Of a stretch of 64,000 nucleotides of DNA, positions 47,711 to 64,000 are shown in pieces (position 1 is the stretch's first letter; each line of letters opens with the position of its first letter). This stretch comes from Sinorhizobium meliloti (GTDB lineage: Bacteria; Pseudomonadota; Alphaproteobacteria; Rhizobiales; Rhizobiaceae): the NCBI RefSeq assembly GCF_035610345.1, contig NZ_CP141214.1:652230-716229 (forward strand). Direction: 5' to 3'. A model generated the notes under the pieces. That model made no database searches. It was not told where the DNA came from and was given only the letters and a program-made list of their open reading frames with translations. The translations under genes and the position numbers were made by a program.

Positions 47711-47773
47711 ATGACCAACCGCAAGCGGCGACGTCCCGCAGCGTTGCATACCGGATTCATGGCGCGGCCATGA
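47711..47773 (+). CDS. Putative 20-residue leader ORF coupled to the lactonase gene
   Basis: ATG 47711 follows a strong ribosome site (GGGAGGACACCA). The frame encodes MTNRKRRRPAALHTGFMARP and stops with TGA at 47771-47773, overlapping the lactonase ATG at 47770 (ATGA). The lactonase itself has no good ribosome site of its own, so its translation may depend on ribosomes ending here. It could be a genuine leader peptide, or the remnant of a gene lost by deletion. Confidence 0.5.
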   Translation: MTNRKRRRPAALHTGFMARP

Positions 47774-48705: not shown

Positions 48706-49490
48706 TGAGCGATTTCAACGGCAAGAACATCGTCGTCACCGGCGGCAGCCTCGGCATGGGTCTCGCGTGTGCCCATCGCTTTGCTGCCGGCGGCGGCAAG
48801 GTGACGATCGTGGCAAACGACAAGGCTTCGGTCGATGAGGCCGTTGCTTCCATCGGCGACAATGCCGCCGGGTTCGTCGGCGACGTCCGCTCCAAGGACG
48901 ACATGGAAGCGGCGGTTCAGGCCGCGGTATCGCGCCATGGGGGCGTCGATATTCTTGCCTGCTGCGCCGGCATCCAGCGCTACGGCACCGTGGTCGACAC
49001 ACCGGATGAGGTCTGGGACGACGTTCTCGACATCAATCTGAAGGGCATCTTCCTCGCCTCCAAATTCGCCATTCCCGAAATGCGCAAGCGCGGCGGCGGC
49101 GCGATCGTCGCCATCTCTTCCGTGCAGGCCTATGCTTCGCAGGCGGGCGTCGCCGCCTATACGGCGAGCAAAGGCGCGATCAACGCACTCGTGCGCGCCA
49201 TGGCGCTGGATCACGCCGGGGACAATATTACTGTCAATGCCGTCTGCCCCGCCTCTGTCGATACCCCGATGTTGCGCTGGGCCGCCGATCTGTGGAAAGG
49301 CGAAGGCACCGCCGAGGCGACCCTGGAAGCTTGGGGAAGAGGACATCCGCTGGGCCGCGTCGGCAAGCCTTCCGAAATTGCCGAACTGGTTGCCTTTCTT
49401 GCTGGCGATAAGGCCCGCTTCATCACGGGCGCCGACATCAAGATCGACGGCGGCGTTCTTTCCAAGCTCGGCATCGTCATTCCAGATTGA
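48705..49490 (+). CDS. Short-chain dehydrogenase
   Basis: A 261-residue classical SDR: TGGSLGMG (about 12-19), active-site Ser in ISSVQAYAS and YTASK. The usual NNAG motif is CCAG, a mild deviation. ATG 48705 overlaps the lactonase TGA by one base. Probably oxidises a hydroxyl of the sugar or sugar acid in the same pathway; a second aldose dehydrogenase in region 4 implies two oxidation steps. Confidence 0.85.
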   Translation: MSDFNGKNIVVTGGSLGMGLACAHRFAAGGGKVTIVANDKASVDEAVASIGDNAAGFVGDVRSKDDMEAAVQAAVSRHGGVDILACCAGIQRYGTVVDTPDEVWDDVLDINLKGIFLASKFAIPEMRKRGGGAIVAISSVQAYASQAGVAAYTASKGAINALVRAMALDHAGDNITVNAVCPASVDTPMLRWAADLWKGEGTAEATLEAWGRGHPLGRVGKPSEIAELVAFLAGDKARFITGADIKIDGGVLSKLGIVIPD

Positions 49491-49503
49491 CCGGAGGCCC
49501 GTC

Positions 49504-50700
49504 ATGAAACCGCTTCCCGATTTCCGCTCGAAAGACTTCCTGCGCGCCCATATGCGCGAGATCATGGATTTCTACCATCCGATCTGCCTCAACGAGGAAG
49601 ACGGAGGCTATTACAACCAATACCGCGACGACGGTCTCATCACCGACCGGAAGACCCAGCATCTCGTCTCCACCACGCGCTTCATCTTCAACTATGCCAC
49701 CGCCGCGGTGCTCTTCGAGCGCCCGGACTTCGCGGAAGCGGCCGCCCATGGCGTAAGGTATCTCGACGAGGTTCATCGCGATCCTAAGCATGGCGGCTAT
49801 TTCTGGCTGATGCGCGGCCGCGATGCGGTGGATGCGACGAAGCATTGCTACGGCCACGCCTTCGTCTTGCTCGCTTATGCGACAGCCATGAAGGCCGGAA
49901 TTCCCGGTATGGATGCCCGGGTTTCGCAGACCTGGGAACTTCTCGAAAGCCGCTTCTGGGAGCCGGACCGCGAACTCTACAAGGACGAAATCAGCCGCGA
50001 CTGGGGGCTGACTTCGCCCTATCGGGGACAGAACGCCAACATGCACATGACCGAGGCGATGCTGGCCGCCTATGAGGCGACCGGCGAGGTCCGTTACCTG
50101 GACCGCGCCGAAACCCTCGCCCGGCGCATCTGCGTCGAGCTTGCCGCCAACGCTCAGGACGTGGTCTGGGAGCACTATCGCGAGGACTGGTCGATCGACT
50201 GGGATTACAACGAGGACGATCCGAAGCACCTCTTCCGGCCCTACGGCTACCAGCCGGGCCACATGACGGAATGGACCAAGCTGCTCCTGATCCTCGAGCG
50301 CTATCGCCCGCAGGACTGGATCCTGCCGAAAGCCCTCCTTCTCTACGAGACGGCCTTGGCAAAGAGCGCCGATCTCGAATTCGGCGGCATGCATTACAGC
50401 TACGGCCCCGACGGCAAGCTCCATGACCTCGACAAATATCATTGGGTCCATTGCGAAACGATTGCGGCCGCGGCCGCGCTCGCCGCACGCACCGGACGGG
50501 AGCGCTACTGGCAGGATTACGACAGGCTCTGGCGCTACAGCTGGCGGCACCTGATCGATCACGAATATGGCTGCTGGTTCCGCATTCTCTCGCCCGACGG
50601 CGTGAAGCAGGGCGACATCAAGAGCCCTCCAGGCAAGACCGACTACCATCCATTCGGTGCCTGCTACGAAATCCTGCGCGTGCTGGGGGAGGCGCAATAG
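49504..50700 (+). CDS. AGE-family (N-acylglucosamine 2-epimerase-like) sugar isomerase
   Basis: A 398-residue alpha/alpha-barrel protein typical of the AGE family: RFIFNYATAAVL, DATKHCYGHAFVLLAYATAM (active-site His), GQNANMHMTEAMLAAYEATG, FRPYGYQPGHMTEWTKLLLI and KYHWVHCETIAAAAALA. Members isomerise aldoses and ketoses (for example mannose/fructose) or epimerise at C2. ATG 49504 follows GGAGG, 13 bases past the SDR stop. Which sugar is isomerised cannot be told. Confidence 0.85.
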   Translation: MKPLPDFRSKDFLRAHMREIMDFYHPICLNEEDGGYYNQYRDDGLITDRKTQHLVSTTRFIFNYATAAVLFERPDFAEAAAHGVRYLDEVHRDPKHGGYFWLMRGRDAVDATKHCYGHAFVLLAYATAMKAGIPGMDARVSQTWELLESRFWEPDRELYKDEISRDWGLTSPYRGQNANMHMTEAMLAAYEATGEVRYLDRAETLARRICVELAANAQDVVWEHYREDWSIDWDYNEDDPKHLFRPYGYQPGHMTEWTKLLLILERYRPQDWILPKALLLYETALAKSADLEFGGMHYSYGPDGKLHDLDKYHWVHCETIAAAAALAARTGRERYWQDYDRLWRYSWRHLIDHEYGCWFRILSPDGVKQGDIKSPPGKTDYHPFGACYEILRVLGEAQ

Positions 50701-50790
50701 CAGGGCGACCGTTTCCGGCCAGCGCCGACGGACACGGCCGGCGCCCCGCACCTTAACCTCCGCACCCGACAGCCTGCATTGGAGCCTCCC

Positions 50791-52038
50791 ATGAAGCGAC
50801 CCAGGATCACCGATATCCGCGCGACCACCGTCACCGTTCCGCTGGAGGCGCCGCTGCGTCATTCCAATGGCGCACATTGGGGGCGGTTCGTCCGTACGAT
50901 CGTCGAGGTGGAAACCGATGTTGGCATCGTCGGTCTCGGCGAAATGGGCGGAGGCGGAGAGAGCGCCGAGGCGGCGTTCCGGGCGTTGAAGCCCTATCTG
51001 GTCGGCCACGATCCCTTCGAGCTGGAAAATCTCCGCTTCATGATCTGCAACCCGACCGCCAGCCTCTACAACAACCGCACCCAGATGCATGCCGCCATCG
51101 AGTTCGCCTGTCTCGACATCATGGGCAAATTTCTCGGCGTGCCGGTCTGCGATCTCCTCGGCGGGAAGATGCGCGATGCGGTTCCTTTTGCCAGCTACAT
51201 GTTTTTCCGCCTTCCCAACAAGGACACCGGCGAGGGCGAGACGCGCACGGCCGATCAGCTCATCGAGCAGACGCTGGCGCTGAAAAAGAAATGCGGATTC
51301 ACCTCGCACAAGCTGAAGAGCGGCGTCTTCGCGCCGGATTACGAGCTGGAGGTCTTTCGCGCATGGGCGAAGGCCCTCGGTCCCGACAGCGTCCGCTACG
51401 ACCCGAACGCGGCGTTCAGCGTCGAGGACGCGATCCGCTTCGCCAAGGGCATCGAGGATCTCAACAACGATTACTACGAGGACCCCACCTGGGGGTTGAA
51501 CGGCATGCGGCGCGTCCGCGAGAACACGACCATGCCGCTCGCCACCAATACCGTCGTGGTGAATTTCGAGCAGCTCGCAGCCAATATCCTCAATCCCGCC
51601 GTGGACGTGATCCTGCTCGACACCACCTTCTGGGGCGGCATCCGCCCCTGCGTGAAGGCGGCGGGCGTCTGCGAAACCTTCCAGCTTGGCATCGCGGTGC
51701 ATTCATCGGGCGAACTCGGCATTCAGCTCGCCACGATGCTGCATCTCGGCGCGGTTCTCCCGAACCTCGTCTTCCACGCGGATGCGCATTATCACCAGCT
51801 GACCGACGATATCATCGTCGGCGGCCCGATGCGCTACGAGAACGGTGCCATCAAGGTACCGACGGCGCCCGGTCTCGGGGTCGAGCTGGATCGCGACAAG
51901 CTCGGGCAGTACGCCGACCTCCATAAGACGCTCGGCGGCTATCCCTACGACCGGGATCCCTCCCGCCCCGGCTGGTTTTCCGTCGTCCCGAACACCCGAT
52001 GGGCGGATCCCAACGACGATCGAACCGTCGATTATTGA
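50791..52038 (+). CDS. Enolase-superfamily dehydratase, glucarate-dehydratase-like
   Basis: A 415-residue enzyme with the glucarate-dehydratase-type Lys-x-Lys in SHKLKSGVF (about 175-183), metal ligands in [12 protein letters not shown] and ATNTVVV, and His in [11 protein letters not shown]. It is distinct from the other dehydratase in this region, whose active-site strand is MKIW. It follows the isomerase gene by 90 bases on the same strand. Dehydration of an aldarate or aldonate to a keto-deoxy acid is the expected reaction. Confidence 0.8.
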
Positions 52039-52265: not shown

Positions 52266-53819
52266 TCAGTGCTCCATGAATGCCATGGTCAAAATACGGT
52301 CTTCCGTCATGTCGGCTCGGTCTACGACGCCGGCGAGCCGTCCCTTGGAGAGAACGGCGACGCGATCACACAACGCCAGGATCTCCGGCACCTCCGACGA
52401 AGCGATGAGGACGGTCAGCCCCTTTTCCGCTTCCCTGGCGACGATGTCGTAGAGCTCGGACTTCGCGCCGACATCCACTCCGTGCGTGGGCTCGTCCAGG
52501 AGCAACAATCGCGGTTCGGCCATGAGGGCGCGGGCGAAGATCGCCTTCTGCTGATTGCCGCCCGAGAGCGTCGAGATCGGCTGCGTGTCGCGAACCATGC
52601 GAATGCCGAGCGTTTCGCGATAGAACGCCATACGCCCGGCCTCTCCTGCCCGATCGGAGAACAGGCCCTTCGAAAAACGGCGCAGGCTGCTGATCGCGGC
52701 ATTGTCGCGCACGGAATGCTGCGGCAGGATGCCTGCCGTCTTGCGGCCTTCCGGCACGAGCGCAACCCCCGCCTTCACCGCCTCGCTCGGATCGGCGAAG
52801 GCCACCTTTTCTCCGAACAGCGAGATGTCGCCAGCCTTCGGCCGGTGCACCCCGTGTATAAGCTCCAGCAGCTCGGTGCGGCCGGCACCGACGAGACCGA
52901 ACAGGCCGAAGATTTCGCCTTTGCGAATGTCGAGGCTGATGTCGTCCAGCAGACGATCGTCTGACAATCCCGCGACCGACAGCGCAGGCGTCCCGCTTGC
53001 TAGGGAACGCTGCCTGTACTGGTAGATGGCGGGCTTCCCCGTCATGTCCTTGATCAACTGCTCGCGGCTCGTTTCGCCGGGGCGTCGCTCGCTGACGATC
53101 GCCCCGTTTCGCAGCACGACGACACGGTCGCAAAGGGCCATCGCCTCCTCCAGGCGATGCGTGATGAAGATGATGGCCGCTCCTGCCTCCCGCGCCTCGC
53201 GGACATAGGAGAAGAACCCGGCGACCTCGTGCGGCGTCAGGGATGACGTCGGCTCGTCGAGGATCAGCAGCCGTGGCTTTCTTGCCGCCGCCTTGGCGAT
53301 CTCGACCAGCTGCTGTTCACCCGCCCGCAGGGTCCCTGCTTCCCGGTCCGGCTGGATGTGACCGGCGCCGACCCTTTGAAGCAGGGCACGGGACGCGTGC
53401 TGCATCAAGTCGATATCGATGAGGCCCATACCGGTCCGCGGCATCCGACCGAGATGCAGGTTCTCGGCGACGCTCAGCGCGCCGACGACAGACAGTTCCT
53501 GATGAACGAAGCTGACGCCCGCTTCGATGCCTTCCGACACTGAGCCGAAGCGGACCGACAGGCCGTCCATTTCGATCGTGCCGCCGTCGGCCTGAAGGCC
53601 GCCGGACAGAATATGCATCAGCGTCGATTTGCCGGCGCCGTTTTCACCGAGCAGGCCCACGATCTCGCCCGCCTTCAAGTCGAGGTCGACCGAGTGAAGT
53701 ACGGAATTGCCCGAGAAACTCTTGGCAATCCGGCGCGCGCGAAGGAGCGGCACGGAGACGACGCGCGCTGCTTCTGCGCCAGGCGCAGCCGCCGCGCGCG
53801 GGCTGTTACTTGGCGTCAT
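52266..53819 (-). CDS. Sugar ABC transporter ATPase, double-domain (RbsA-like)
   Basis: A 517-residue fusion of two ATPase domains. The first has Walker A GENGAGKSTLMHILSG and Walker B LLILDEPTSSLT; the second has the reduced P-loop GLVGAGRTELLELIHG and signature SGGNQQKAIFARAL, as usual for RbsA/MglA. ATG 53819 overlaps the binding-protein gene end by 14 bases; a slightly later start is possible. It powers monosaccharide uptake and is the last gene of the ten-gene operon. Confidence 0.9.
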   Translation of the reverse strand: MTPSNSPRAAAAPGAEAARVVSVPLLRARRIAKSFSGNSVLHSVDLDLKAGEIVGLLGENGAGKSTLMHILSGGLQADGGTIEMDGLSVRFGSVSEGIEAGVSFVHQELSVVGALSVAENLHLGRMPRTGMGLIDIDLMQHASRALLQRVGAGHIQPDREAGTLRAGEQQLVEIAKAAARKPRLLILDEPTSSLTPHEVAGFFSYVREAREAGAAIIFITHRLEEAMALCDRVVVLRNGAIVSERRPGETSREQLIKDMTGKPAIYQYRQRSLASGTPALSVAGLSDDRLLDDISLDIRKGEIFGLFGLVGAGRTELLELIHGVHRPKAGDISLFGEKVAFADPSEAVKAGVALVPEGRKTAGILPQHSVRDNAAISSLRRFSKGLFSDRAGEAGRMAFYRETLGIRMVRDTQPISTLSGGNQQKAIFARALMAEPRLLLLDEPTHGVDVGAKSELYDIVAREAEKGLTVLIASSEVPEILALCDRVAVLSKGRLAGVVDRADMTEDRILTMAFMEH

Positions 53820-54780
53820 CGGGCGTCAGCAGCTTTCCGGTCACCGGGATGACCTTTGCGGGCGGTTCCTGGCCGGCGACGATATAGTTGTAGAGCATAA
53901 CGCTCGAATCGAGCGCCTGCTGGTAGGGCGCCTGGTCGATCAGGCCGACCATCTCACCGGTTTTGAGGTACTGGATATTGTCGGGCGTATGGTCGAAGCC
54001 GACGACGCCGACCTTGCCGGTCAGGTTGAGATCCTTGACGGCCTTTGCCGCACCGAACGGCCCGCCGGCGGTCACGTAGACCATCGAGAGATCCGGATTG
54101 GCGGTCATCATGTCCTGAACGAGCGAATAGGCCGATTCCGCCTTGTCCTTGTTCTCGAAAGGACCGACGATCTGAATGTCCGGGGAGTTCGCCTTCAGAT
54201 ATTCCAGCGCGCCGTTCATGCGCTGCGTGTGCTGGGTGGCGCCGAAATAGCCGGTGATGACGCCGAGCTTGCCCTTTCCGTTCATCTTCTTGGCGATGAA
54301 TTCGCCGATCTGCTTGCCGGCCGAGGTCGCATCCTGGCCGATGAAGGCAAGGCGCTGCGATTCCGTCGCACCTTCCGCAATGATGTTGAAGACCGGCACG
54401 CCCTCTTCCGTGGCTTCGTTGATAATGCGCGCCGTGCCGTCGAAGATCGGCACCACGACGATGCCGTCATATTTCTTGGCGAGTGCGCCCTCGATGCCGG
54501 CGACGACCGCCTCGGCGGAGAGCTCGTCCCCGAGATCGACGAAATCGACCTTGGCGTCGTATTTCGACAGATAGTCGTTCGCCGCCCTCGCCCCTTCCGT
54601 GACCGGGGTCCAGAACGGATTGTTCTGAAACGACAGGAAAGCGATCCTCACCGGCCCCTTGGTGTTTTCCACCGCGGCGACGGTGCCGCCCTGCGGTGCT
54701 TCGCCCGCCAGCGAAGGCAATGTGACCGCCGCAACGGCCGCAGCGGCAAAGGCCATGGTTTTAAGTCTCTTGAGCAACAT
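53806..54780 (-). CDS. Periplasmic sugar-binding protein (Peripla_BP_4)
   Basis: A 324-residue binding protein with signal peptide (1-25, ending LPSLAGE), then PVRIAFLSFQNNPFWTPVTE and AAVVGIEGALAKKYDGIVVV-type segments and QTFN-like ligand residues in INEATEEGVPVFNIIAEG. RbsB-type. It is encoded between the permease and ATPase genes. Ligand unknown; it should be the substrate of the upstream dehydrogenase/CoA-type enzymes. Confidence 0.9.
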   Translation of the reverse strand: MLLKRLKTMAFAAAAVAAVTLPSLAGEAPQGGTVAAVENTKGPVRIAFLSFQNNPFWTPVTEGARAANDYLSKYDAKVDFVDLGDELSAEAVVAGIEGALAKKYDGIVVVPIFDGTARIINEATEEGVPVFNIIAEGATESQRLAFIGQDATSAGKQIGEFIAKKMNGKGKLGVITGYFGATQHTQRMNGALEYLKANSPDIQIVGPFENKDKAESAYSLVQDMMTANPDLSMVYVTAGGPFGAAKAVKDLNLTGKVGVVGFDHTPDNIQYLKTGEMVGLIDQAPYQQALDSSVMLYNYIVAGQEPPAKVIPVTGKLLTPDDAK

Positions 54781-54802
54781 GCTTGTCTCCTCCGATAAAT
54801 GA

Positions 54803-55765
54803 TCAGTCGTCGTCGCCGCCGCGCTGCAGCCCGTCCAGCCCGACGGCGAAGATGATGACGAGCCCCTTGGTCACGACCTGCCAGTAGGCAGAGATGCCGA
54901 GAAGCACAAAAGCGTTGTTGAGCAGCGCCATGAGCAAGGCGCCGATCACCACGCCGAGGATCGAACCGCGGCCGCCGCTCAATGCGGTGCCGCCGAGGAT
55001 CACGGCGGCGATGACGTCCAGCTCGTATCCCATGCCGAGATTCGGGTCGGCGCTTGCCAGGTTGCCCGCGAGGATGAGCCCGCCGAGCCCTGCCAGCAGG
55101 CCGCACAGCGCGAAGACGAACAGCCGGGTCGAGCGCAGGTTCACGCCGGCAAGACGGGAGGCCTTGGGATTGTCGCCGATCGCATAGATCTCCCGGCCTG
55201 TGACGGTCCGGCTCGCGAACACATGGACGATCGCGGCGAGCACGATCATCAGCAGGAAGGACACCGGTATGTCGAAGATGCGCCCCGCACCGACGAACTC
55301 GGCAAAGCCGCCGAACGATACAGGGATGCCGCCGGTCATGAGGAGCGCGATCCCGCGCGCGATCGAGAGCGTGCCGAGCGTGGCGATGAAAGGATTGATT
55401 TTCAGCCGCGTGTAGAGAAGTCCGTTGGCAAGACCGCAGGCGAGTCCTGTCAGAAGGCCGCCGAGGAGGCCGACGGTCTCGCTGCCGGTGTCGCGCATCA
55501 GCACGGCTGCGACGACAGCGGAAAGACCGATGACCGAACCCACGGAAAGATCGATGCCGCGCGCGATGATGACCAGGGCCTGCCCCAAGGCGACGATCGC
55601 CACGACCGAGGCCTGGCGGCCGACGTTCAGCAGGTTGCGCGGTTCCAGGAAATAATCGCTGGCGAATGTCAGATAGAGCGCCACGACGGCGAGCATGGCA
55701 AGCACCGATGCTTCGCGATGCCGGCCCAGTCCTCGTGCGAAGGTCAATGCTGACTGCATGGTCAT
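54803..55765 (-). CDS. Sugar ABC transporter permease (RbsC-like)
   Basis: A 320-residue BPD_transp_2 permease with about eight membrane segments: LGQALVIIARGIDLSVGSVI (about 62-81), NGLLYTRLKINPFIATLGTL and ELDVIAAVILGGTALSGGRG. ATG 55765 overlaps the crotonase TGA by one base. It forms the channel with itself as dimer and works with the double-domain ATPase and binding protein downstream. Confidence 0.9.
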   Translation of the reverse strand: MTMQSALTFARGLGRHREASVLAMLAVVALYLTFASDYFLEPRNLLNVGRQASVVAIVALGQALVIIARGIDLSVGSVIGLSAVVAAVLMRDTGSETVGLLGGLLTGLACGLANGLLYTRLKINPFIATLGTLSIARGIALLMTGGIPVSFGGFAEFVGAGRIFDIPVSFLLMIVLAAIVHVFASRTVTGREIYAIGDNPKASRLAGVNLRSTRLFVFALCGLLAGLGGLILAGNLASADPNLGMGYELDVIAAVILGGTALSGGRGSILGVVIGALLMALLNNAFVLLGISAYWQVVTKGLVIIFAVGLDGLQRGGDDD

Positions 55766-56535
55766 CACCGCCTTTCGAAATTGGGGGCGCGCTTCTCCTT
55801 GAAGGCCGCCCGGCCTTCGGCCGCGTCCGCGGTCGCAAAGCAGATCGTCTGCAGATCGCGTTCGTATTCGATAGCCTTGTCGAGCGGCATCGAAACCGCC
55901 GCCTTGAGGTTGGCCTTCGCCGTTTCCGCCGCGATCGGTGCCCGCGAGGCGATGATTTCGGCGATCGCGCCGGCACGTTCCAACAGGTCGGTCTGGGGAA
56001 CGACCTCGCTGACCAACCCCCAGGCCAGCGCCTTGTCCGCCGGTATCGGGTCGCCCGTCATCAGCATGAGCGCGGCATTCGAGGCGCCGATGGAATGCAT
56101 CAGATGTGCCGCCATGCCGCCGCCGCCGATCCATCCGAGCTTGATCTCCGGTGCCGCGAACTGCGCGTTTTCCGAAGCGATCCGGATGTCGCAGGACATG
56201 GCCGTCTCCAGGCCGCCACCGAAGGCATAGCCGTTCACCGCGCAGATCGTCGGCTTGAGCAGGGCGCGGAACGCATCGCAATAGTCCGGCCGATTGCGGA
56301 ACTGCCAGGGCGTACGGTAGGTGTCGAGCTCGCGGATATCGGAGCCGGCGCAGAAGGCGCGATCACCGGCGCCGGTAAGGATGACGCAGCGAATGCGGTC
56401 GCTGTCGTTGCTTTCCTTCACGGCCTCGACGATCGCCTCGGCCATTTCCGGCGTCACGGCATTGAGCTTTTGGGGCCGGTTGAGGGTGATCGTGGCGATT
56501 GCACCGTCCACGGCATAGAGAACGTCGTCGGTCAT
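55765..56535 (-). CDS. Enoyl-CoA hydratase/isomerase (crotonase)
   Basis: A 256-residue crotonase: oxyanion-hole segments CAGSDIREL and AFGGGLETAMSCDIRIAS, and both catalytic Glu of hydratases present (GGGLE and FAAPEIKLG). It should act on an acyl-CoA ester by adding or removing water. Found here between a cytoplasmic binding-protein-like gene and the sugar permease. A CoA-dependent step in a sugar operon is unusual; it fits the CoA-transferase encoded two genes upstream. Confidence 0.85.
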   Translation of the reverse strand: MTDDVLYAVDGAIATITLNRPQKLNAVTPEMAEAIVEAVKESNDSDRIRCVILTGAGDRAFCAGSDIRELDTYRTPWQFRNRPDYCDAFRALLKPTICAVNGYAFGGGLETAMSCDIRIASENAQFAAPEIKLGWIGGGGMAAHLMHSIGASNAALMLMTGDPIPADKALAWGLVSEVVPQTDLLERAGAIAEIIASRAPIAAETAKANLKAAVSMPLDKAIEYERDLQTICFATADAAEGRAAFKEKRAPNFERR

Positions 56536-56539
56536 TTAC

Positions 56540-57688
56540 CTACCTTTCGCCACCGGCTTTGCGATGGCTTGCATAGAGGGCCTGCAAGCTTTCGAGCACG
56601 CCGTCGGCCGGCGCCTTGTCCTCGAAGGCCTGCCGCAGAAGCGGCGAGGCCTTGCCCTGGAAGGCGATGTAGCCGTCGTGGCGCGGGCGCACATAGGCCT
56701 GCTCCAGCGTTTCGGCCGTGTTTTCGTAGAATCCGCCCCAGCGGGCGTTGACGCGTGGATCATGCCAGGCCTCGCGCCGAGACGGCTGGCCGTCATGTGC
56801 GGGGATGAAATCGACCTGGGCCTCGCGGCTCATCAGCCAGAGCAGGTGTTCCTTCAGAGCCGGCGTGATTTCGCAGCGCCGCGAGATGCCGATTCCCGTA
56901 CCCCCGAGCGTCGAACCCGGCCGCCCGCCGGGGATGCGGCGCGGCGCGTCGTGGAAGGCGACCTGATGCCCCGTCTGCGGCGCGGCGTAGTTCACGTAAC
57001 CGTAGACCAGCGGGCAGAGCACGACGTCGTCGTTCGACGCCATGTGATCGAGGATCCCGATCGGGTTCCGGTCGCGCACAGACCGCGGACTGCGGTTCGC
57101 GAGATCGCGCATCAGTTCGTAAACCGAGCGCCCGACGTGCCGGGAGACGAGGACCTCCGGATCCGTCTCTGCCGGAGGGTCGCCGAAGGCCGCGGCTATC
57201 GACAGGAACGAGAGCGCCGCGTGCGGACCGGCGAGCGACAGCGCCACCTTGCCGGTGGTCCGGGAGAGCGCCACGACCTCGTCCCAAAGCTCGGGCACCG
57301 GTGCCTCGAGAAGATCGGCCCGCGCCGCCATCACCTGCGTGGCCGCATCGAGCGGCAGCGCCCAATGAGCGCCGCCGAAGCGGTAGCTCCGCAAGGAGGG
57401 ACCGATGCTCTCCGCCTCGAGCGCCTGGACGGTCGCATCGCCGAACACGTCCTCGAGAGACCGCAGGCAACTTCCGGCCAGAGCTTCCCCGACATGCGGA
57501 TGATCGAGAACCACGAGATCGTAGCGCGCGCAAAGATCGGTGATCGGATGGGATTCGAAGCCTTCGAGCGGCTGCTTCTCCCAATCTATGGCGAGCCCCC
57601 ATTCTGCAAGTTCAGGGCGCGCGGCGGCAGCCGCAAGCGCCTTGTAGCCGCGTGGATGATCCCATGTCAGAGCCTTCAGCCGTTGCAT
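56540..57688 (-). CDS. Solute-binding-protein-like protein without signal peptide
   Basis: A 382-residue protein with the layout of extracellular solute-binding proteins (SBP_bac_1-like): the segments ELAEWGLAIDWEKQPLEGFE, ARYDLVVLDHPHVGEAL and GGAHWALPLDAATQVMAARA are typical of the family. However, the start MQRLKALTWDHPRGYKALAA has no hydrophobic signal core and there is no good upstream alternative, so it is probably cytoplasmic. It lies two bases after the CoA-transferase gene and four before the crotonase gene. Binding or chaperoning a CoA-pathway intermediate is possible. Confidence 0.7.
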   Translation of the reverse strand: MQRLKALTWDHPRGYKALAAAAARPELAEWGLAIDWEKQPLEGFESHPITDLCARYDLVVLDHPHVGEALAGSCLRSLEDVFGDATVQALEAESIGPSLRSYRFGGAHWALPLDAATQVMAARADLLEAPVPELWDEVVALSRTTGKVALSLAGPHAALSFLSIAAAFGDPPAETDPEVLVSRHVGRSVYELMRDLANRSPRSVRDRNPIGILDHMASNDDVVLCPLVYGYVNYAAPQTGHQVAFHDAPRRIPGGRPGSTLGGTGIGISRRCEITPALKEHLLWLMSREAQVDFIPAHDGQPSRREAWHDPRVNARWGGFYENTAETLEQAYVRPRHDGYIAFQGKASPLLRQAFEDKAPADGVLESLQALYASHRKAGGER

Positions 57689-57690
57689 CG

Positions 57691-58884
57691 TCAGACGTCC
57701 TCGGCGGCAATGGCACCGGCGGCTTCGAGTGCGGCGATGCGAGCCTCGTCATAGCCCGCGTCCTTCAATATCTCGCGTGTATGCTGACCGACGACCGGCG
57801 CCCCGCGGTCGACGGTCGAGGGGGTCTTGGAGAACCTGATCGGAAACCCGGGCGTCTTGACGCGGCCTTCGGTCGGATGGTCATATTCGACGAAGGTACC
57901 GTTGTGCCTGATCTGCGCGTCCTCGACGAGGTCCGCATAGCCATAGACCGGGCCGCACCAGATGTCTGCCGCACGAAGCCGTGCCAGCCACTCCTCGGAA
58001 CTTTTCGTCTTCAGCTTCTCGCGTGTCTTCGCGAAGATCTCGTCCCGCCTGGTCCAGGTGTCGACTTCGTCGTCCATGGTCAGGAAGCTTTCCTCGCCGA
58101 TCACCTCTCCCAAGGTCTTGAGCTTGGGAAACGCGACGATGATGAAACCATCGGTGGTGGCGAAAGCGCCGTAGGGTGCGCGGATGTAGACATGGGCGTG
58201 CGGCTCGGCCGAGCGCTTCTGCGGTTTCTGGCCGATCGTGAAGACAGAGAGCTCCTGCATCTGGATCGTGGTGATCGCATCCAGCATATTGACCTGCACG
58301 AGCTGTCCCTCGCCGGTCCGCTCCCGGTGAAAGAGAGCTGCCAGGGCGCCTTCGAATGCGTTGTAGGCGGTGATGGCGTCGACCAGATATTGCCCCGCCG
58401 CCGTCGGCGCCTCGCCTTCGCGTCCCGCCGAAAGCATTGCGCCGGACATGCCCTGGAGAACGAGATCCTGTCCGGGCCGATCGATATAGGGTCCATCTTC
58501 GCCATATCCCGACATCGACACATAGACGAGGCGCGGATTGATGCGGGAGAGCGTGTCGTAATCGACGCCGAGACGTTTCGCGACGCCCGGACGGTAGTTC
58601 TGCAGGAAGATGTCGGCCGTCTTCACCAGGTCGAGAAGAACCTCCTTACCCTCCGGCGACTTCAGGTCGACGGCGAGCGAGCGCTTGTTGCGATTGAGCG
58701 ACAGGAAGGAGACGTTGACCCTGTTGCCTCCGGCTCCCCCCGCGGCGACGTGGCGCTGCCACTCGCCCGTCACGGGCTCGACCTTGATCACGTCGGCGCC
58801 GAGGTCGCCGAGACGCTGTGCCGCAAACGGACCCGCCATGGCGATCGAGCAATCGAGGACGCGAAATCCGCTGAGAATTCCCAT
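57691..58884 (-). CDS. Class III CoA-transferase (CaiB/BaiF family)
   Basis: A 397-residue enzyme with the family layout: FRVLDCSIAMAGPFAAQRLG at the N-terminus, NRNKRSLAVDLKSPEGKEVL, and the catalytic Asp at residue 169 in YLVDAITAYNAFEG, followed by ALFHRERTGEGQ. Asp169 matches the position of the nucleophile in formyl-CoA transferase. It moves CoA onto a carboxylic acid, presumably a sugar-derived acid. Together with the crotonase it implies acyl-CoA chemistry in this operon. Confidence 0.9.
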   Translation of the reverse strand: MGILSGFRVLDCSIAMAGPFAAQRLGDLGADVIKVEPVTGEWQRHVAAGGAGGNRVNVSFLSLNRNKRSLAVDLKSPEGKEVLLDLVKTADIFLQNYRPGVAKRLGVDYDTLSRINPRLVYVSMSGYGEDGPYIDRPGQDLVLQGMSGAMLSAGREGEAPTAAGQYLVDAITAYNAFEGALAALFHRERTGEGQLVQVNMLDAITTIQMQELSVFTIGQKPQKRSAEPHAHVYIRAPYGAFATTDGFIIVAFPKLKTLGEVIGEESFLTMDDEVDTWTRRDEIFAKTREKLKTKSSEEWLARLRAADIWCGPVYGYADLVEDAQIRHNGTFVEYDHPTEGRVKTPGFPIRFSKTPSTVDRGAPVVGQHTREILKDAGYDEARIAALEAAGAIAAEDV

Positions 58885-58912
58885 TCGTTCAGTTCCTTAT
58901 GTATTCAAGCGG

Positions 58913-59707
58913 TCAATGCATCACCCAGCCGCCGTCGACGTTCAGGGTCTGGCCGGTGATGAAGCCCGCAGAGTCGGAGATCAGGAAGGTGAGAGCGGCA
59001 GCGATGTCGGCCGGGCGACCACGGCGTTTGACCGCCTGGTGGTCGAGCACGAAACGCGTATAGCCTTCCGGATCCGGATGGATCTTTTCGGCATCCGTCG
59101 GGAAAGCGCCGGGCGAGATGGCATTGACGGTGATGCCGTAGCCACCGAATTCGCGCGCCCAGGCGCGCGTCAGCCCGACGAGGGCGCCCTTGGACTGCAC
59201 ATAAGGGGCAAGATTGGCCCACCCGCCGGACAGGGTGACGCTGGCGATATTGACGATCCGGCCCCAGCCCCGCTCGCGCATATACGGCAAGGCCGCCTGG
59301 ACGCAGACGATGCCGGCATCGACATTGATCCGCTGCACGCGCTGGAAATCCTCGATCGAATACTCTTCGAACGGCCTCGACGGATAGATCGCGGCATTGT
59401 TGATCACCACATCGAAGCCGCCCGCCTTGGCAGCAGCCTGGTCGAGCGCGGCGCGCAGGCCGCTCAGGTCGGCGAGGTCGATCGCCCGCACCGTGAGGCC
59501 GCCCAGCCCTTCCCTTTCCGAAGCATCCACGAGCGCGCGCGTCTTTGCCTCGTCGTTGTCGATGGCCACGACGCGTGCGCCGGCACGGAGAAAACTCAGT
59601 GTCGTCTCCGCTCCCAGGCCGCCGGCCGCACCCGTATAAAGGATGACCTTGCCGGCGATCGACATTCCGGGGACGACCTCCCCGGCGGTCAAAGGTCCGG
59701 CAATCAT
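58913..59707 (-). CDS. Short-chain dehydrogenase
   Basis: A 264-residue classical SDR: TGAAGGLG cofactor motif (about 25-32), NNAAIYPS, Ser in IASVTLSGG and active-site YVQSK. Its ATG region lies after the DUF4432 gene (ATGA overlap). It resembles aldose 1-dehydrogenases of sugar-oxidation clusters and could produce the acid that the CoA-transferase activates. Confidence 0.85.
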   Translation of the reverse strand: MIAGPLTAGEVVPGMSIAGKVILYTGAAGGLGAETTLSFLRAGARVVAIDNDEAKTRALVDASEREGLGGLTVRAIDLADLSGLRAALDQAAAKAGGFDVVINNAAIYPSRPFEEYSIEDFQRVQRINVDAGIVCVQAALPYMRERGWGRIVNIASVTLSGGWANLAPYVQSKGALVGLTRAWAREFGGYGITVNAISPGAFPTDAEKIHPDPEGYTRFVLDHQAVKRRGRPADIAAALTFLISDSAGFITGQTLNVDGGWVMH

Positions 59708-60885
59708 CGCCGTCCTCCGATGGGCAAGTGATTGCCGGTCGGCCGGGGAAACGCGTCGACGGGTTGTTCGGCGAGGCTGCGGATCCGCCTTTCGCTGGCT
59801 GCTATCGCATCCGCATCGGGAAGGATCCGGAAGGTGGTGTCATATCTCCGTTCGTCACCATGCTCGAGCCAGATCAGTTCGCCGCGCTCGCGCGCAGCAC
59901 CATGGCCGAGGACGTGATTGGTCGACGGCTCTATGCCGAGCGCATACTGCCCGGCTTGCAGGTTCTGCCATTCGTACATGCAGGGAAACTGGTCCTTGCG
60001 GGTGACGACTTCGAAGCCGATGCCGAGCGCATCGTTGACGAGGGCAACCGGAACCCGGCCTTCGCCGTCCGCGGCCATTTCGTGCTGCCAGACCTGCTCG
60101 TGGAAATTGAGCTGCGGAGCCGGCAGCGTATGGTAGCCGACATCCTGCTTCTCGTAGTCGGCGCCGGCATGAGCGGCCCAGACGACGTCCTTGATGGGCG
60201 CCAGGTAGCGGGAATTTTCCGCCAGGACCGGATGGCCGACATTGATGTGGTAACAATACATGTGCGGGGTGCGGTAGAAGCCGCGATTGACCACCCGGTC
60301 GGTGAGCCTGATCTCGTTGGTGCCCGCCTTGATTTCGATGCGGCGCACGAGATCGAGATGCTCTCCGAACACCGTACCCTGGGTGACGACACCCTCGCAC
60401 CAGAGGATGCAGTCGTCGCCCCTCCATTCCTCGCCATAGCCCGTGAGCCTTGCAGGAATCGTTCCGATCCGGCCATGCAGCGAATGGCTGATGGTCCTGC
60501 GCGGGCCGTAGACATAGGTGTCGCCCGGCTCGTCCGCCATGAACAGGATATGGTCGAGACCGCAGGTCACCATGAGTCCCGAGAAGGAGCGCAGCCAGGA
60601 AAGACCGCCCTCGCCTTCATATTCATGCAGGCCGGGATGCTTGAAGCCGGCCGGGGAGTTCCATCCGATCGCCATGCCGCGAAATTCGCAGTCGGCGATA
60701 TCGAGGGCGCGGTCGACGAGCACGGTGAAGCGCAATCCCGTTCCGCTGCGGAATTCCAGCATGCGGATGCCGCGCTCGACGCCGTCTTCGAGCGTCATCA
60801 GGCGCACGCCGGCAAATTGCGAAAAAGACCCGGCCCTGGCGGCGATGTCGCGGCGCGACATCGCCTTCCCGTAGAGTTCGACCAT
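59704..60885 (-). CDS. DUF4432 aldose-epimerase-like protein
   Basis: A 393-residue beta-sandwich protein of the DUF4432 group: RFTVLVDRALDIADCEFRGM (about 53-72), WLRSFSGLMVTCGLDHI, HSLHGRIGTIPARLTGYGEE and YCYHINVGHPVLAENSRYLA. It has the galactose-mutarotase fold. It probably interconverts anomers of, or binds, the operon sugar. ATG 60885 follows an 88-base gap that holds a hairpin (60946-60970). Confidence 0.8.
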   Translation of the reverse strand: MVELYGKAMSRRDIAARAGSFSQFAGVRLMTLEDGVERGIRMLEFRSGTGLRFTVLVDRALDIADCEFRGMAIGWNSPAGFKHPGLHEYEGEGGLSWLRSFSGLMVTCGLDHILFMADEPGDTYVYGPRRTISHSLHGRIGTIPARLTGYGEEWRGDDCILWCEGVVTQGTVFGEHLDLVRRIEIKAGTNEIRLTDRVVNRGFYRTPHMYCYHINVGHPVLAENSRYLAPIKDVVWAAHAGADYEKQDVGYHTLPAPQLNFHEQVWQHEMAADGEGRVPVALVNDALGIGFEVVTRKDQFPCMYEWQNLQAGQYALGIEPSTNHVLGHGAARERGELIWLEHGDERRYDTTFRILPDADAIAASERRIRSLAEQPVDAFPRPTGNHLPIGGRR

Positions 60886-60945
60886 GTGGATGTTCCTGTC
60901 GTATGCCCGGCTCGGGCAGCCCTTTCATGCCTTGGGTAAACGCGG

Positions 60946-60970
60946 CCGGACCCGTGCCCGGCCGGTCCGG
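60946..60970 (-). promoter_or_regulatory. Intercistronic hairpin after the TIM-barrel isomerase gene
   Basis: CCGGACC (60946-60952) pairs perfectly with GGTCCGG (60964-60970), three bases past the isomerase stop codon. There is no T run. It may cut or stabilise the mRNA so that the dehydrogenase and isomerase genes are expressed differently from the rest of the operon. Confidence 0.4.
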
Positions 60971-60973
60971 TGA

Positions 60974-61888
60974 TCAGAGGCCGAGCGCCCGAAGCTTCCC
61001 GTCGAGGAACCTCTTGGCGCGCGGCACATCGCTTTCGTCGAGATGCTCGATGATGACGGGTATGTTCGGATGCTTCTTCGAAAGCCGCTGGAGATAGAGA
61101 TCGTAGTTCAGCGAGCCGAGGCCCGGTGCCGGAAGCTCGATCTCGCCCACGCCGCGGAAGGTATGGCTTTCGAGCGCATCCTCATCACCGATATCGGCAT
61201 GCTTCTCCGTCTTGTCGTCGCCCGAACGCTTGACGTCCTTGGCATGGGCGATCTTGATCCTGTCCTGCAGGGTGTCGAAGACCTGGTTCAGTATCTCGTC
61301 CATGCGGCCGATGTTGTGCGCCTCGAAATAGTTCGTCGGATCCATCAGCAGACCGAGACCGGGGTGATCCACCTGGGCGAACATCTTCACGGTCTCCTCG
61401 ACCGAGCCGACGACGTTGTTCACGTAGGTTTCGAGGAGGAAGACGGCACCATGATCATAGGCGTGCTGGGCAAGATCGGCGATGACCTTGCGGCACTCCT
61501 CGAAGCCTTCTTCGGTCTTGTTCCTCGGGTGATGCACCCAGTCCGACTCCGTGTTGTAGGTGCCGGTTTCCGAGATGACATAGGGCGTGCCGAGATACTG
61601 GGCGTGGCGGATGATCTCCTTGAGGTAACCGACGCGACGCTGGCGCTCTGCCCTGTCCGGATGGATGATGTTGGTGTAGCCGGAAATGCAGGAGATCGGC
61701 AGATGATGATCGCGGAAGGTCTCGCGGATCCGGATGCACTTCTCCCGCGTGATCTGGCCTGCCGACAGATCGACATCCTTGAAATGCATGTCGAGCTGAA
61801 CGGTATTGAAGTCGAGCGCTCTTATTTTTCTCGCCGTCTCTTCCAGGCTGTAGGGGAAATAGCCCGTAAAAATGCCGGTTTGCATCAT
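60974..61888 (-). CDS. TIM-barrel sugar isomerase/epimerase (xylose-isomerase-like)
   Basis: A 304-residue AP-endonuclease-2/xylose-isomerase-like barrel: IRALDFNTVQLDMHFKDVDL, CISGYTNIIHPDRAERQRRV, VISETGTYN (metal Glu), FLLETYVNNVVGSVEET and LGLLMDPTNY (Asp), with late Glu in IPVIIEHLDESD. These residues usually bind a divalent metal in sugar epimerases and isomerases. ATG 61888 follows GGGAGGA. It lies 21 bases after the dehydrogenase gene. Confidence 0.85.
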   Translation of the reverse strand: MMQTGIFTGYFPYSLEETARKIRALDFNTVQLDMHFKDVDLSAGQITREKCIRIRETFRDHHLPISCISGYTNIIHPDRAERQRRVGYLKEIIRHAQYLGTPYVISETGTYNTESDWVHHPRNKTEEGFEECRKVIADLAQHAYDHGAVFLLETYVNNVVGSVEETVKMFAQVDHPGLGLLMDPTNYFEAHNIGRMDEILNQVFDTLQDRIKIAHAKDVKRSGDDKTEKHADIGDEDALESHTFRGVGEIELPAPGLGSLNYDLYLQRLSKKHPNIPVIIEHLDESDVPRAKRFLDGKLRALGL

Positions 61889-61909
61889 GATTGAATTCCT
61901 CCCTTGCAA

Positions 61910-63001
61910 TCAGTCGACCGAGATCTCGGAAAGCTTGACCGTTCGTGCCTCGGCGATGGAGCGGTAGCCCGCCTCCACCAATGCGACGGTTTTGACGTTG
62001 TCGGCCACGGAGAGCGCCGGGGCTTCGCCGGATTTCAGCGCATATTGCAGCTGTTCCATCACCCCGATGAAGGCATGGGGGAACCACATGGTCTCCCATT
62101 CCGGGCTGACCCACTTTCCATCCGTCGTCTTTTTCGACGCGTATGAGAGCGTCGAGGGCGAGCCGTCCGGCCAGCCGATCGTGCCCTGCGCGACGCCTTC
62201 CGTGCCCTCGACCCGCCACTTGATGTAGATGTCGCTGTCGAACCCCTCCTCGCGCGGGCCGGACCAGACGTCTTCCATGGAGACGGCTAGAACGCCGTCG
62301 GGGAAGGTGAGCGTCGAGACCGTGATCCCGTCCGTATGGGCAAATTCGGTGCGTGGATCCGGCCGGGTGACCGTCGTGATCGCGTCCGGTTCGCCGAACA
62401 GGAAGCGCAGCACGTCGAGGTGATGCACGCTCATATTGGCGAGGGTCAGCCGGTCGTATTCCTCGAGAAAACCTTGCCAGTGCGGAATCGCCCGCATCTC
62501 GATGGTCGCTATGACGACCGTGCCGAGCTCGCCTCTGTCGAGGATCTGCTTCAGAACCCGCATAGACTGGTCATAGCGCATATTCTGGTTGACCGAGAAT
62601 ATCTTGCCGGCGCTTGCCGCCTCGTCCCGCAAGGCCTTCGCTTCGTCCAGCGTGAGCGCCAAGGGCTTTTGCGCGAGGATTGCCTTGATATGCGGCTGCG
62701 CAAGTGCTTCGCGGATCAGCGCCGGCTGCTGGTCCGGCGGAAAGGCAATGTCGAGGATCTCGACGTTCGCATCGGCGATCAAAGCGGAAGGCGTCGCATG
62801 AACGGCGGGAATTTCCCAACGGGCGGCGACGGCCTCTGCCCGTTCCTGCGTGCGTGAGGCGATCGCAGCGACGGGAAAGCCCGCCTGCCGATAAGCGGCC
62901 AGATGACATTCGGCCATGATCATGCCGGCTCCGATGCAGCCGATCTTGTATTCTTTCACCCGCACCGGCGGGTCAGGCACGAAGCCATTGGCAGCGCTCA
63001 C
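61910..63001 (-). CDS. Gfo/Idh/MocA-family sugar dehydrogenase
   Basis: A 363-residue NAD(P)-dependent dehydrogenase: Rossmann GCIGAGMIM (about 21-29), then AILAQKPLALTLDEA where the usual EKP is QKP (residues 111-113; catalytic Lys kept), and HLDVLRFLFGEPDAI with conserved His. GTG 63001 is chosen because GGGAGGAG precedes it by four bases; the frame open to 63082 has no comparable site. It heads the ten-gene operon and probably performs the first oxidation of the sugar. Confidence 0.85.
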   Translation of the reverse strand: MSAANGFVPDPPVRVKEYKIGCIGAGMIMAECHLAAYRQAGFPVAAIASRTQERAEAVAARWEIPAVHATPSALIADANVEILDIAFPPDQQPALIREALAQPHIKAILAQKPLALTLDEAKALRDEAASAGKIFSVNQNMRYDQSMRVLKQILDRGELGTVVIATIEMRAIPHWQGFLEEYDRLTLANMSVHHLDVLRFLFGEPDAITTVTRPDPRTEFAHTDGITVSTLTFPDGVLAVSMEDVWSGPREEGFDSDIYIKWRVEGTEGVAQGTIGWPDGSPSTLSYASKKTTDGKWVSPEWETMWFPHAFIGVMEQLQYALKSGEAPALSVADNVKTVALVEAGYRSIAEARTVKLSEISVD

Positions 63002-63344
63002 GAAACTCCTCCCATTCACCTCGCCGGCGGCGCCGCACTCCCGTAGCGGCAAAATTGCGGCCGGCGACTTGTCCGGTTCCATTCTTCCCCGGCACCAAGT
63101 CGAGCGGGATACTCATTCCGATACGCATCAAAGTCAACATCATTATCAATCTTTTTACATCATTTTTTTAGTCTTTATGATGTACCTCCCCAACCCTCCA
63201 TTGTGCCGGCCTGCGGCATGATCGATATTTCAGTGGAAAACCGGGCATTTCTCCTACCCCCTTGTCGCGACGGCCCGGCTCCCTCTTGTTTCTTGGCCAG
63301 GAAGGATTACATCAAAACACATCATTTTAAGCGAAGAGGCGGCT
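63002..63344. promoter_or_regulatory. Divergent promoter region with repeated ACATCAT motifs
   Basis: There is no gene in these 343 bases. The A/T-rich part (63120-63185) contains ACATCATT at 63137-63144 and 63157-63164, and the inverted pair TACATCAT (63156-63163) with ATGATGTA (63177-63184). Further ACATCAAA (63309-63316) and ACATCATT (63319-63326) lie just before the LacI start. These are likely operator sites shared by the LacI regulator and the ten-gene operon. Confidence 0.6.
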
Positions 63345-64000
63345 TTGCGATCCACACTGACTGATATCGCCCGGGAGGCTGGCGTTTCGAGCGCGACCGT
63401 CGATCGCGTCCTTAACAATCGCAGCGGCGTCAAGCACAGGACGCGCGAAATCGTCATGGATGCCGCCCGGCGTCTGGGCTACCTCGGCCTCGCCGCGCAC
63501 AACGCCTCCGCGGAAGGGCGCGTGCGCCTCGACTTCGTGCTGCCGGCAGGCACCAATACCTTCATCGCCAACCTTCTCCGGCAATTGCAAAGCCAGGGCA
63601 CGGCCAGACCTGATCTCGACGTGCGCGTCCACTCCATCGAAGGGTTCAATCCGGACACGCTCGCCGGCACCCTTCAGGAATTGAGGGGCGAGACCATGGG
63701 CGTGGGCGTAATCGCCTTGGACCATCCGACGGTCAGAGAGGCAATGCGTTCACTCGCCTCTTCGGGAGTGCCGATCGTAACGCTCGTATCCGACATCCTG
63801 CACGTACCGCGCACCGGCTATATCGGCATCGACAATCGCGCGGCCGGAAGGCTCGCAGGATACCTGCTCGGACGTTTTCTCGGCCGAGAGACGAAGGGTA
63901 AGATCGCGCTGTTCGCCGGCTCTCTCTCCTACCGAGGCCACGAGGAACGGGAGATGGGCTTTCGTCACATCATCGCTGACGAGTTCCCCGCCCTCGAAAT
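63345..64000 (+). CDS. LacI-family regulator, partial at right edge
   Basis: An open frame of 218 complete codons runs off the right edge. It starts at TTG 63345 (GAGG five bases upstream) with LRSTLTDIAREAGVSSATVD, the LacI headpiece, followed by RVLNNRSGVKHRTREIVMDA and a sugar-binding-like domain (LDFVLPAGTNTFIANLLRQL, and YIGIDNRAAGRLAGYLLGRF). It is divergent from the ten-gene sugar/CoA operon and presumably represses it. No ATG alternative is available in frame. Confidence 0.85.
   Translation, partial: MRSTLTDIAREAGVSSATVDRVLNNRSGVKHRTREIVMDAARRLGYLGLAAHNASAEGRVRLDFVLPAGTNTFIANLLRQLQSQGTARPDLDVRVHSIEGFNPDTLAGTLQELRGETMGVGVIALDHPTVREAMRSLASSGVPIVTLVSDILHVPRTGYIGIDNRAAGRLAGYLLGRFLGRETKGKIALFAGSLSYRGHEEREMGFRHIIADEFPALE

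Follow-up and report, generated by a model that had tools for sequence, protein, structure and literature searches.

We analysed a 64,000-nucleotide stretch of Sinorhizobium meliloti DNA (contig NZ_CP141214.1, positions 652,230 to 716,229; hereafter the window), from a four-contig genome of 6.6 Mb, that carries a ten-gene operon joining sugar-type genes to a family III CoA-transferase, a solute-binding protein (SBP) lacking a signal peptide and a crotonase. The ten open reading frames (ORFs) run on the minus strand from 63001 down to 52266 with spacings of -14 (an overlap) to 88 bases, and their coordinates and Pfam families agree with an earlier reading of the letters alone (the sequence-only reading). 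The first gene encodes a Gfo/Idh/MocA-family dehydrogenase (61910 to 63001; Pfam GFO_IDH_MocA), whose ORF is open to 63082 and which has 363 residues with the start annotated in Sinorhizobium sp. K101, the source also of the permease start at 55765. It is followed by a xylose-isomerase-like TIM barrel protein (60974 to 61888; Pfam AP_endonuc_2; ATG start, with a TTG alternative at 61909), a DUF4432 protein (59704 to 60885; Pfam, 331 bits) labelled as aldose 1-epimerase family in other genomes, and an SDR oxidoreductase (58913 to 59707; Pfam adh_short_C2) that is a candidate aldose 1-dehydrogenase. Next come the CaiB-type CoA-transferase (57691 to 58884; Pfam CoA_transf_3, 363.6 bits), the SBP, which has a CUT1-type sugar-binding protein fold and is probably cytosolic (56540 to 57688; Pfam SBP_bac_8), and the crotonase, of the enoyl-CoA hydratase family (55765 to 56535; Pfam ECH_1). 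An importer completes the unit: an RbsC-type permease (54803 to 55765; Pfam BPD_transp_2), which at 236.5 bits is under the equivalog cut-off of 398 for the NCBIfam ribose permease, an RbsB-type binding protein with an N-terminal signal peptide by inspection (53806 to 54780; Pfam Peripla_BP_4, 172 bits) and an RbsA-type double ATPase (52266 to 53819; Pfam ABC_tran, two stretches). None of the ten genes encodes a kinase or an aldolase, as the sequence-only reading had also noted. Gene by gene, the operon is 97-99% identical in S. meliloti 4H41 (locus L006) and 98-100% identical in Sinorhizobium sp. K101 (locus L099).

A LacI-family regulator gene diverges from the operon (63345 to 64000, plus strand; Pfam LacI and Peripla_BP_4); it is cut by the window end, has 338 residues in locus L005 and occupies the same place in relatives. 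The 343-base region between it and the Gfo/Idh gene (63002-63344) contains five TGATGT half-sites, candidate LacI operators, at 63137, 63157, 63309 and 63319 on the minus strand and 63178 on the plus strand (63137 to 63324 overall), where the motif's density across the window predicts 0.19. Of 14 related intergenic regions examined (LacI/Gfo or LacI/DUF4432), 12 have the motif and two, L066 and L067, lack it. Together with the divergent regulator, the half-sites are compatible with a single, predicted regulated promoter for the unit. The half-sites are partly direct repeats 10 or 20 bases apart, an arrangement unusual for a LacI-family operator and seen also in relatives. A hairpin terminator scan found four hairpins on both strands against 7.5 expected by shuffling, the sole minus-strand hairpin (62764-62750) lying within the Gfo/Idh gene, and a promoter scan likewise gave no excess. 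Upstream of CaiB genes that stand apart from the block, TGATGT occurs at most once per locus across 17 loci.

The two enzymes of the CoA block retain their catalytic residues. The best Protein Data Bank (PDB) match of CaiB is succinate--hydroxymethylglutarate CoA-transferase (9br6, 2.1e-66), and Asp169, the catalytic residue named by the sequence-only reading, is the same in all 19 aligned sequences, that of the window counted. The crotonase is closest to 3-hydroxypropionyl-CoA dehydratase (5zai, 2.6e-52), and both of its glutamates, Glu110 and Glu130, are likewise kept as proposed (16/16 aligned sequences). The SBP scores 26.1 bits against Pfam SBP_bac_8, slightly below the cut-off of 27, and its predicted structure adopts a type II periplasmic-binding-protein fold in which strand 1 begins at residue 2, with no signal peptide for export. 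The distance between the CaiB stop codon and the aligned SBP start is -16 to +44 nucleotides (nt) in 69 of 70 pairs (107 nt in the remaining pair), which leaves no room for a signal peptide. Eight residues are invariant among 36 SBP sequences: Trp9, His11, Arg13, His63, His65, His156, Arg334 and Arg336. Relatives are numerous, with 3143 at E <=0.001 among 8000 candidates scored; signal peptides were checked in the loci studied. A mirror-tree comparison was tried as a sign of CaiB-SBP partnership and did not single it out, giving r 0.63, lower than SBP-DUF4432 (0.89) or CaiB-crotonase (0.86), from an input in which at least one CaiB pick (L046) is a paralogue.

We searched 84,980 species genomes with an SBP alignment, confirmed 121 loci and kept the best 80, each a stretch of up to ~21 kb. 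A CaiB-family gene is present in 76 of these 80 and a crotonase or MaoC gene in 79, and in 67 the CaiB, SBP and crotonase genes are contiguous on one strand. The expectation that CaiB and crotonase would be kept at this locus in relatives is thus borne out, S. meliloti L006 being among the 67. DUF4432 accompanies the block in 45/80 loci and Gfo/Idh together with the TIM barrel gene in 25/80, both lower bounds, as at least 12 stretches end near the expected place of these genes. The loci span Proteobacteria, which from genus names we take to be Alpha-, Beta- and Gammaproteobacteria, as well as metagenome-assembled genomes (MAGs) of Acidobacteria and Verrucomicrobia, and a Streptomyces plasmid carries DUF4432, SDR, CaiB, SBP, crotonase and an FAH-family gene together. 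The importer is exchangeable: Rbs-type genes occur in 19 of the 80 loci, CUT1 in 34, Dpp in 12, a TRAP membrane gene in 6 and MFS in 12, counts that may include some genes of adjacent units; none of these types is seen in 11 stretches. The block is therefore not bound to RbsABC.

Within the window's family the SBP occurs in 91 of 297 genomes, 18 with a close copy (>=54% identity, the window's own counted) and 73 with one at 29-43%. In four Rhizobium loci (L046, L047, L053 and L054) the operon keeps the SBP and crotonase but has no close CaiB next to them, and all four genomes encode an 84-87% identical CaiB elsewhere (6/6 entries, two genomes being doubled as G608 and G468). Of the four loci in the set of 80 without any CaiB, three belong to genomes with an 86-87% identical copy elsewhere. 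CaiB is retained in the genome even after leaving the operon. One stretch, L080 (SBP at 48% identity), has neither CaiB nor crotonase nor MaoC.

The genes preceding the block are candidates for sugar processing and oxidation. The Gfo/Idh profile best matches the PDB oxidoreductase 5uhw (1.7e-31), which we take to be the apionate enzyme ApnO, followed by inositol dehydrogenases and DgpA, with a weak match to levoglucosan dehydrogenase. The TIM barrel protein has 86% mean column identity over 12 aligned sequences, and its PDB matches are weak (IolE 3cny, 0.005); it is the most conserved protein of the set, at 88% median identity over 25 loci, and is almost without a solved relative. The operon pair is like IolG/IolE, DgpA, levoglucosan dehydrogenase and 5uhw in its Gfo/Idh-TIM pairing and distant sequence similarity, and unlike them in falling under all curated cut-offs. 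Lactonase-like genes stand in some of the 80 loci (PF10282 type in 12, SMP-30 type in 3). Two TRAP-linked loci, L036 and L043, carry MaoC, CaiB, SBP and crotonase without SDR or DUF4432, as would be expected if the TRAP system imports the acid directly; the L043 stretch ends right after the crotonase.

A further gene may link the block to a lower pathway. In many relatives the crotonase gene adjoins one for an FAH-family protein of ~380 residues (Pfam FAA_hydrolase), which is present in 34/80 loci and is not among the ten genes of the window's operon. Among loci without a local copy, 40 of 46 (38 genomes; L075, L078, L080, L083, L084 and L085 were left out) were checked, and 34 of the 38 genomes have the gene elsewhere (E <=1e-30). 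A 60% identical FAH gene lies in trans in the window's genome, ~116 kb away on the same contig (~G000:C3:587045-588241). Across the window's family the gene accompanies 18 of 18 close SBPs, 57 of 73 distant SBPs and 95 of 206 genomes with no SBP; for close SBPs against all others (152/279) Fisher's test gives p 2.9e-5, uncorrected for kinship. Similarity to 2q18 makes the FAH protein a candidate 2-keto-3-deoxypentonate (KDP) dehydratase. In PMC6336799, the COG3970 FAH proteins C785_RS13680 and RS13710 of Herbaspirillum huttiense convert D- and L-KDP to alpha-ketoglutaric semialdehyde, and PMC9795676 reviews the archaeal KDP dehydratase and its pathway. The recurrent FAH partner thus suggests an end route from KDP to alpha-ketoglutarate, and such a route would explain why the operon has no aldolase or kinase.

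We defined a complete locus as one with FAH, CaiB, SBP and crotonase (n=30) and used tblastn to look in its ~20 kb surroundings for IlvD/EDD, enolase-superfamily and UxaA/GarD dehydratases, taking one to three reference proteins of each as queries. No canonical aldonate dehydratase (IlvD/EDD, enolase, UxaA) was detected in 24 of the 30. Nine complete loci (Azospirillum, Paracoccus, Yoonia) have an NADP-type aldehyde dehydrogenase, and within ~20 kb none of the nine has a canonical dehydratase; they contain importer genes, an SDR-type gene, CaiB, SBP, crotonase, FAH and the aldehyde dehydrogenase. No aldonate dehydratase is hidden among the operon's ten genes by Pfam either. With no canonical dehydratase detected beside the full block in these loci, the CoA block would, by elimination, supply the dehydration.

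On this basis we propose, tentatively and at somewhat less than even confidence, that CaiB and crotonase act together as a CoA-dependent dehydratase, with the cytosolic SBP as partner, and that its substrate is a pentonate-type sugar acid of a Weimberg-like route. Gene content, conservation, recurrence and the presence of the FAH gene are observed directly and the SBP fold is predicted; from these we infer all the reactions, which sugar is used, what the FAH protein acts on and what the SBP does. RbsABC would take the sugar into the cell, where Gfo/Idh and the TIM barrel protein, if present, would act on it first, and DUF4432 as mutarotase and SDR as aldose dehydrogenase would yield the aldonate. 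The signal-less SBP may bind the sugar acid in the cytosol and deliver it to CaiB, which would transfer CoA onto it from an acyl-CoA donor. The crotonase would then eliminate the C3 oxygen together with the C2 proton, which the thioester acidifies, to form a 2-keto-3-deoxy acyl-CoA, from which CaiB would hand the CoA on to the next sugar acid, so that CoA is recycled. Free KDP would pass through the FAH-family dehydratase and aldehyde dehydrogenase to alpha-ketoglutarate. CaiB and CaiD dehydrate carnitine by the same logic, with a CoA thioester, elimination by a crotonase and recycling of CoA by a family III transferase. The sequence-only reading had an imported sugar or cyclitol derivative oxidised to an acid and, once activated by conversion to a CoA ester, hydrated or dehydrated. 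Of the readings tried, that sequence of steps fits best, with dehydration favoured, and the activity itself is our inference; a cyclitol substrate is disfavoured, since the Gfo/Idh-TIM pair resembles IolG/IolE only weakly and the lower pathway indicates pentonates. If correct, the block would be a second bacterial way to dehydrate sugar acids, probably without a metal or iron-sulphur centre, and would join sugar catabolism to CoA thioester chemistry. It would also give a first job to signal-less binding proteins annotated as sugar transporters and correct 'carbohydrate ABC transporter substrate-binding protein' annotations. Literature searches, chiefly of openly accessible papers, returned no description of the gene block.

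Several points weigh against this proposal. Six of the 30 complete loci do have a canonical dehydratase nearby (L030, L050, L056, L058, L059 and L067), and in the genomes of the other 24 loci one could sit beyond the ~20 kb searched. The in-trans FAH gene of the window's genome neighbours an IlvD/EDD dehydratase as well as an aldehyde dehydrogenase, and has no TGATGT motif upstream. FAH genes are common regardless of the block, occurring in 170 of the 297 family members, distant-SBP and SBP-less genomes included, and four MAGs (three acidobacterial, one verrucomicrobial) have the block with no FAH gene at the threshold used. No NCBIfam model matches the FAH proteins, which are putatively of the Herbaspirillum COG3970 type, and other FAH-family enzymes break C-C bonds. 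The one aldehyde dehydrogenase checked is far closer to 3v4c (8.8e-157) than to the semialdehyde dehydrogenase 5x5t (2.4e-18). The SBP is patchy and not widespread, found in 6 of 385 genomes sampled at class level and 13 of 299 at phylum level, and both the CoA donor and the transfer of CoA to a sugar acid are proposals.

The proposed route is like and unlike several known systems. With the Weimberg pathway (Route II), as set out in PMC6336799 and PMC9795676, it would share aldose oxidation, a pentonate, KDP, a KDP dehydratase of the FAH superfamily and a semialdehyde dehydrogenase. The operon differs in having CaiB, SBP and crotonase in place of an IlvD/EDD or enolase-type aldonate dehydratase, and in this genome the candidate KDP dehydratase is in trans. 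Carnitine CaiB/CaiD likewise pairs a family III CoA-transferase bearing the catalytic Asp with a crotonase as a CoA-recycling hydroxy-acid dehydratase; here the genes sit in a sugar operon of ten genes without a betaine-type transporter, an extra signal-less SBP is present and CaiB is nearest to succinate--hydroxymethylglutarate CoA-transferase rather than to carnitine CaiB. From CUT1-type binding proteins such as LpqY, TMBP and SmoF, the operon SBP differs in lacking a signal peptide, in a start codon tied to the CaiB stop and in its invariant Trp/His/Arg set. Genes of L-fucose/L-rhamnose Route III islands neighbour the block in Sphingomonas, Nitrospirillum and Rhizobium loci and also stand beside a MaoC/CaiBc/SBPc variant in many family genomes. 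Such islands have their own enolase-superfamily dehydratases (nearest to L-talarate/galactarate dehydratase in NCBIfam, under the cut-off), and the CoA block is additional there. By Pfam the operon's ten genes include neither an enolase-type dehydratase nor FAH, and the Route III set of fuconate dehydratase, KDF 4-dehydrogenase and 2,4-diketo-acid hydrolase is not in the unit.

The crotonase could alternatively catalyse a CoA-dependent retro-aldol cleavage, splitting C2-C3 of a 2,3-dihydroxyacyl-CoA made by CaiB into glycolyl-CoA and an aldehyde that is later oxidised and phosphorylated. Hydroxycinnamoyl-CoA hydratase-lyases are crotonases known for such cleavage, and the aldehyde dehydrogenase could act on the resulting aldehyde. 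Beside the block in Sphingomonas (L044:4999-6793) and Nitrospirillum (L059:13136-14885) lie genes for glyoxylate/hydroxypyruvate-reductase-like and P-loop kinase-like proteins, all under curated cut-offs, as expected for C2/C3 products; the CoA-dependent dehydratase proposal gives no explanation for them. Retro-aldol cleavage would, however, not require the block-linked FAH gene, and the best crotonase match, 5zai, is a dehydratase. We consider this route unlikely.

A glycoside might instead be imported, and the block might act by CoA-dependent side-chain degradation on the substituent or aglycone freed from it, such as an aromatic or short hydroxy acid. In levoglucosan and C-glycoside systems, Gfo/Idh-TIM pairs are known to use oxidation and elimination to cleave glycosides, and the weak matches to DgpA and levoglucosan dehydrogenase would suit such a role. 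On the other side, 55 of the 80 loci have no Gfo/TIM pair, although at least 12 of these stretches may stop short of its place, and the 12 PF10282 and 3 SMP-30 loci carry lactonase-like genes, a sugar-acid feature. The chance of an aglycone substrate is, in our estimate, similarly low.

A broader version of the dehydratase proposal, which we regard as doubtful, is that CaiB-SBP-crotonase/MaoC constitutes a new class of CoA-dependent eliminase for aldonates that metal dehydratases cannot handle, with the SBP, a sugar-binding protein relocated to the cytosol, as the substrate-presenting subunit of a CoA-transferase. Its substrates might, at the same doubtful level, include O-methylated pentonates and deoxyhexonates of pectin; rhamnogalacturonan II contains 2-O-methyl-xylose and 2-O-methyl-fucose. 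Variants of the block occur both by a pentose-type lower route and by deoxyhexose-type genes. The main block of Sphingomonas, Nitrospirillum and their relatives lies by GH141-like and GH28-like beta-helix genes and by L-fucose-type genes (fuconolactonase-like, under the cut-off, rhamnose mutarotase and enolase superfamily). Among the 80 loci a GH141-like gene is near the block in 12, and an enolase-superfamily dehydratase-type gene like that of L044 is near it in 15, 13 of them at >=65% identity; with that gene at hand, plain deoxyhexonates there should not need the block.

It is rather improbable that CaiB, SBP and crotonase just ride along in sugar operons as a side pathway of fatty-acid or amino-acid type. 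The wide variation of the importer and upstream genes would fit, as would a diverged CaiB-SBP pair (37-38% identical) on another contig of the same genome (L004:9255-11542, G000:C2), which has no sugar genes around it and neighbours argininosuccinate-lyase, MmgE/PrpD and amino-acid-type ABC genes. Against this, the same sugar genes (DUF4432, SDR, FAH) accompany the block across phyla, at 45/80 loci for DUF4432 and 34/80 for FAH, and CaiB is kept in trans once lost from the operon. Least probable is that CaiB serves C2 epimerisation of the sugar acid by a racemase-like use of the thioester, the crotonase acting elsewhere: alpha-methylacyl-CoA racemases belong to the same superfamily, but they score 113 bits against CaiB where CoA-transferases score 227, the transferase Asp169 is kept, and CaiB and crotonase form one contiguous block in 67/80 loci.

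Two further arrangements of the block were found. In a second variant, seen in Shinella HZN7 and its relatives, the gene order differs; its members are ECHb, SDR, an SMP-30 lactonase, SBP and CaiB. It includes a conserved 360-residue protein (L096:8993-10075) with no Pfam or NCBIfam match, and the idea that this is a DUF4432 relative was unsupported on comparison. The third variant (L128-L143), present in many family genomes, places CaiB-SBP, often as MaoC-CaiB-SBP, by an IclR gene with a CUT1 importer and a rhamnose-mutarotase-like gene, together with Gfo/Idh, a second MaoC often adjoining it, SDR, enolase-superfamily genes and a small FAH.

Convergent on the operon, a second sugar-acid unit lies on the plus strand at 47770-52038, in an order kept in K101. 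It encodes SMP-30, SDR, AGE epimerase and enolase-superfamily proteins. In NCBIfam comparisons its AGE epimerase is D-mannose-isomerase-like and its enolase-superfamily gene (50779-52038) is nearest to glucarate dehydratase, both under the respective cut-offs.

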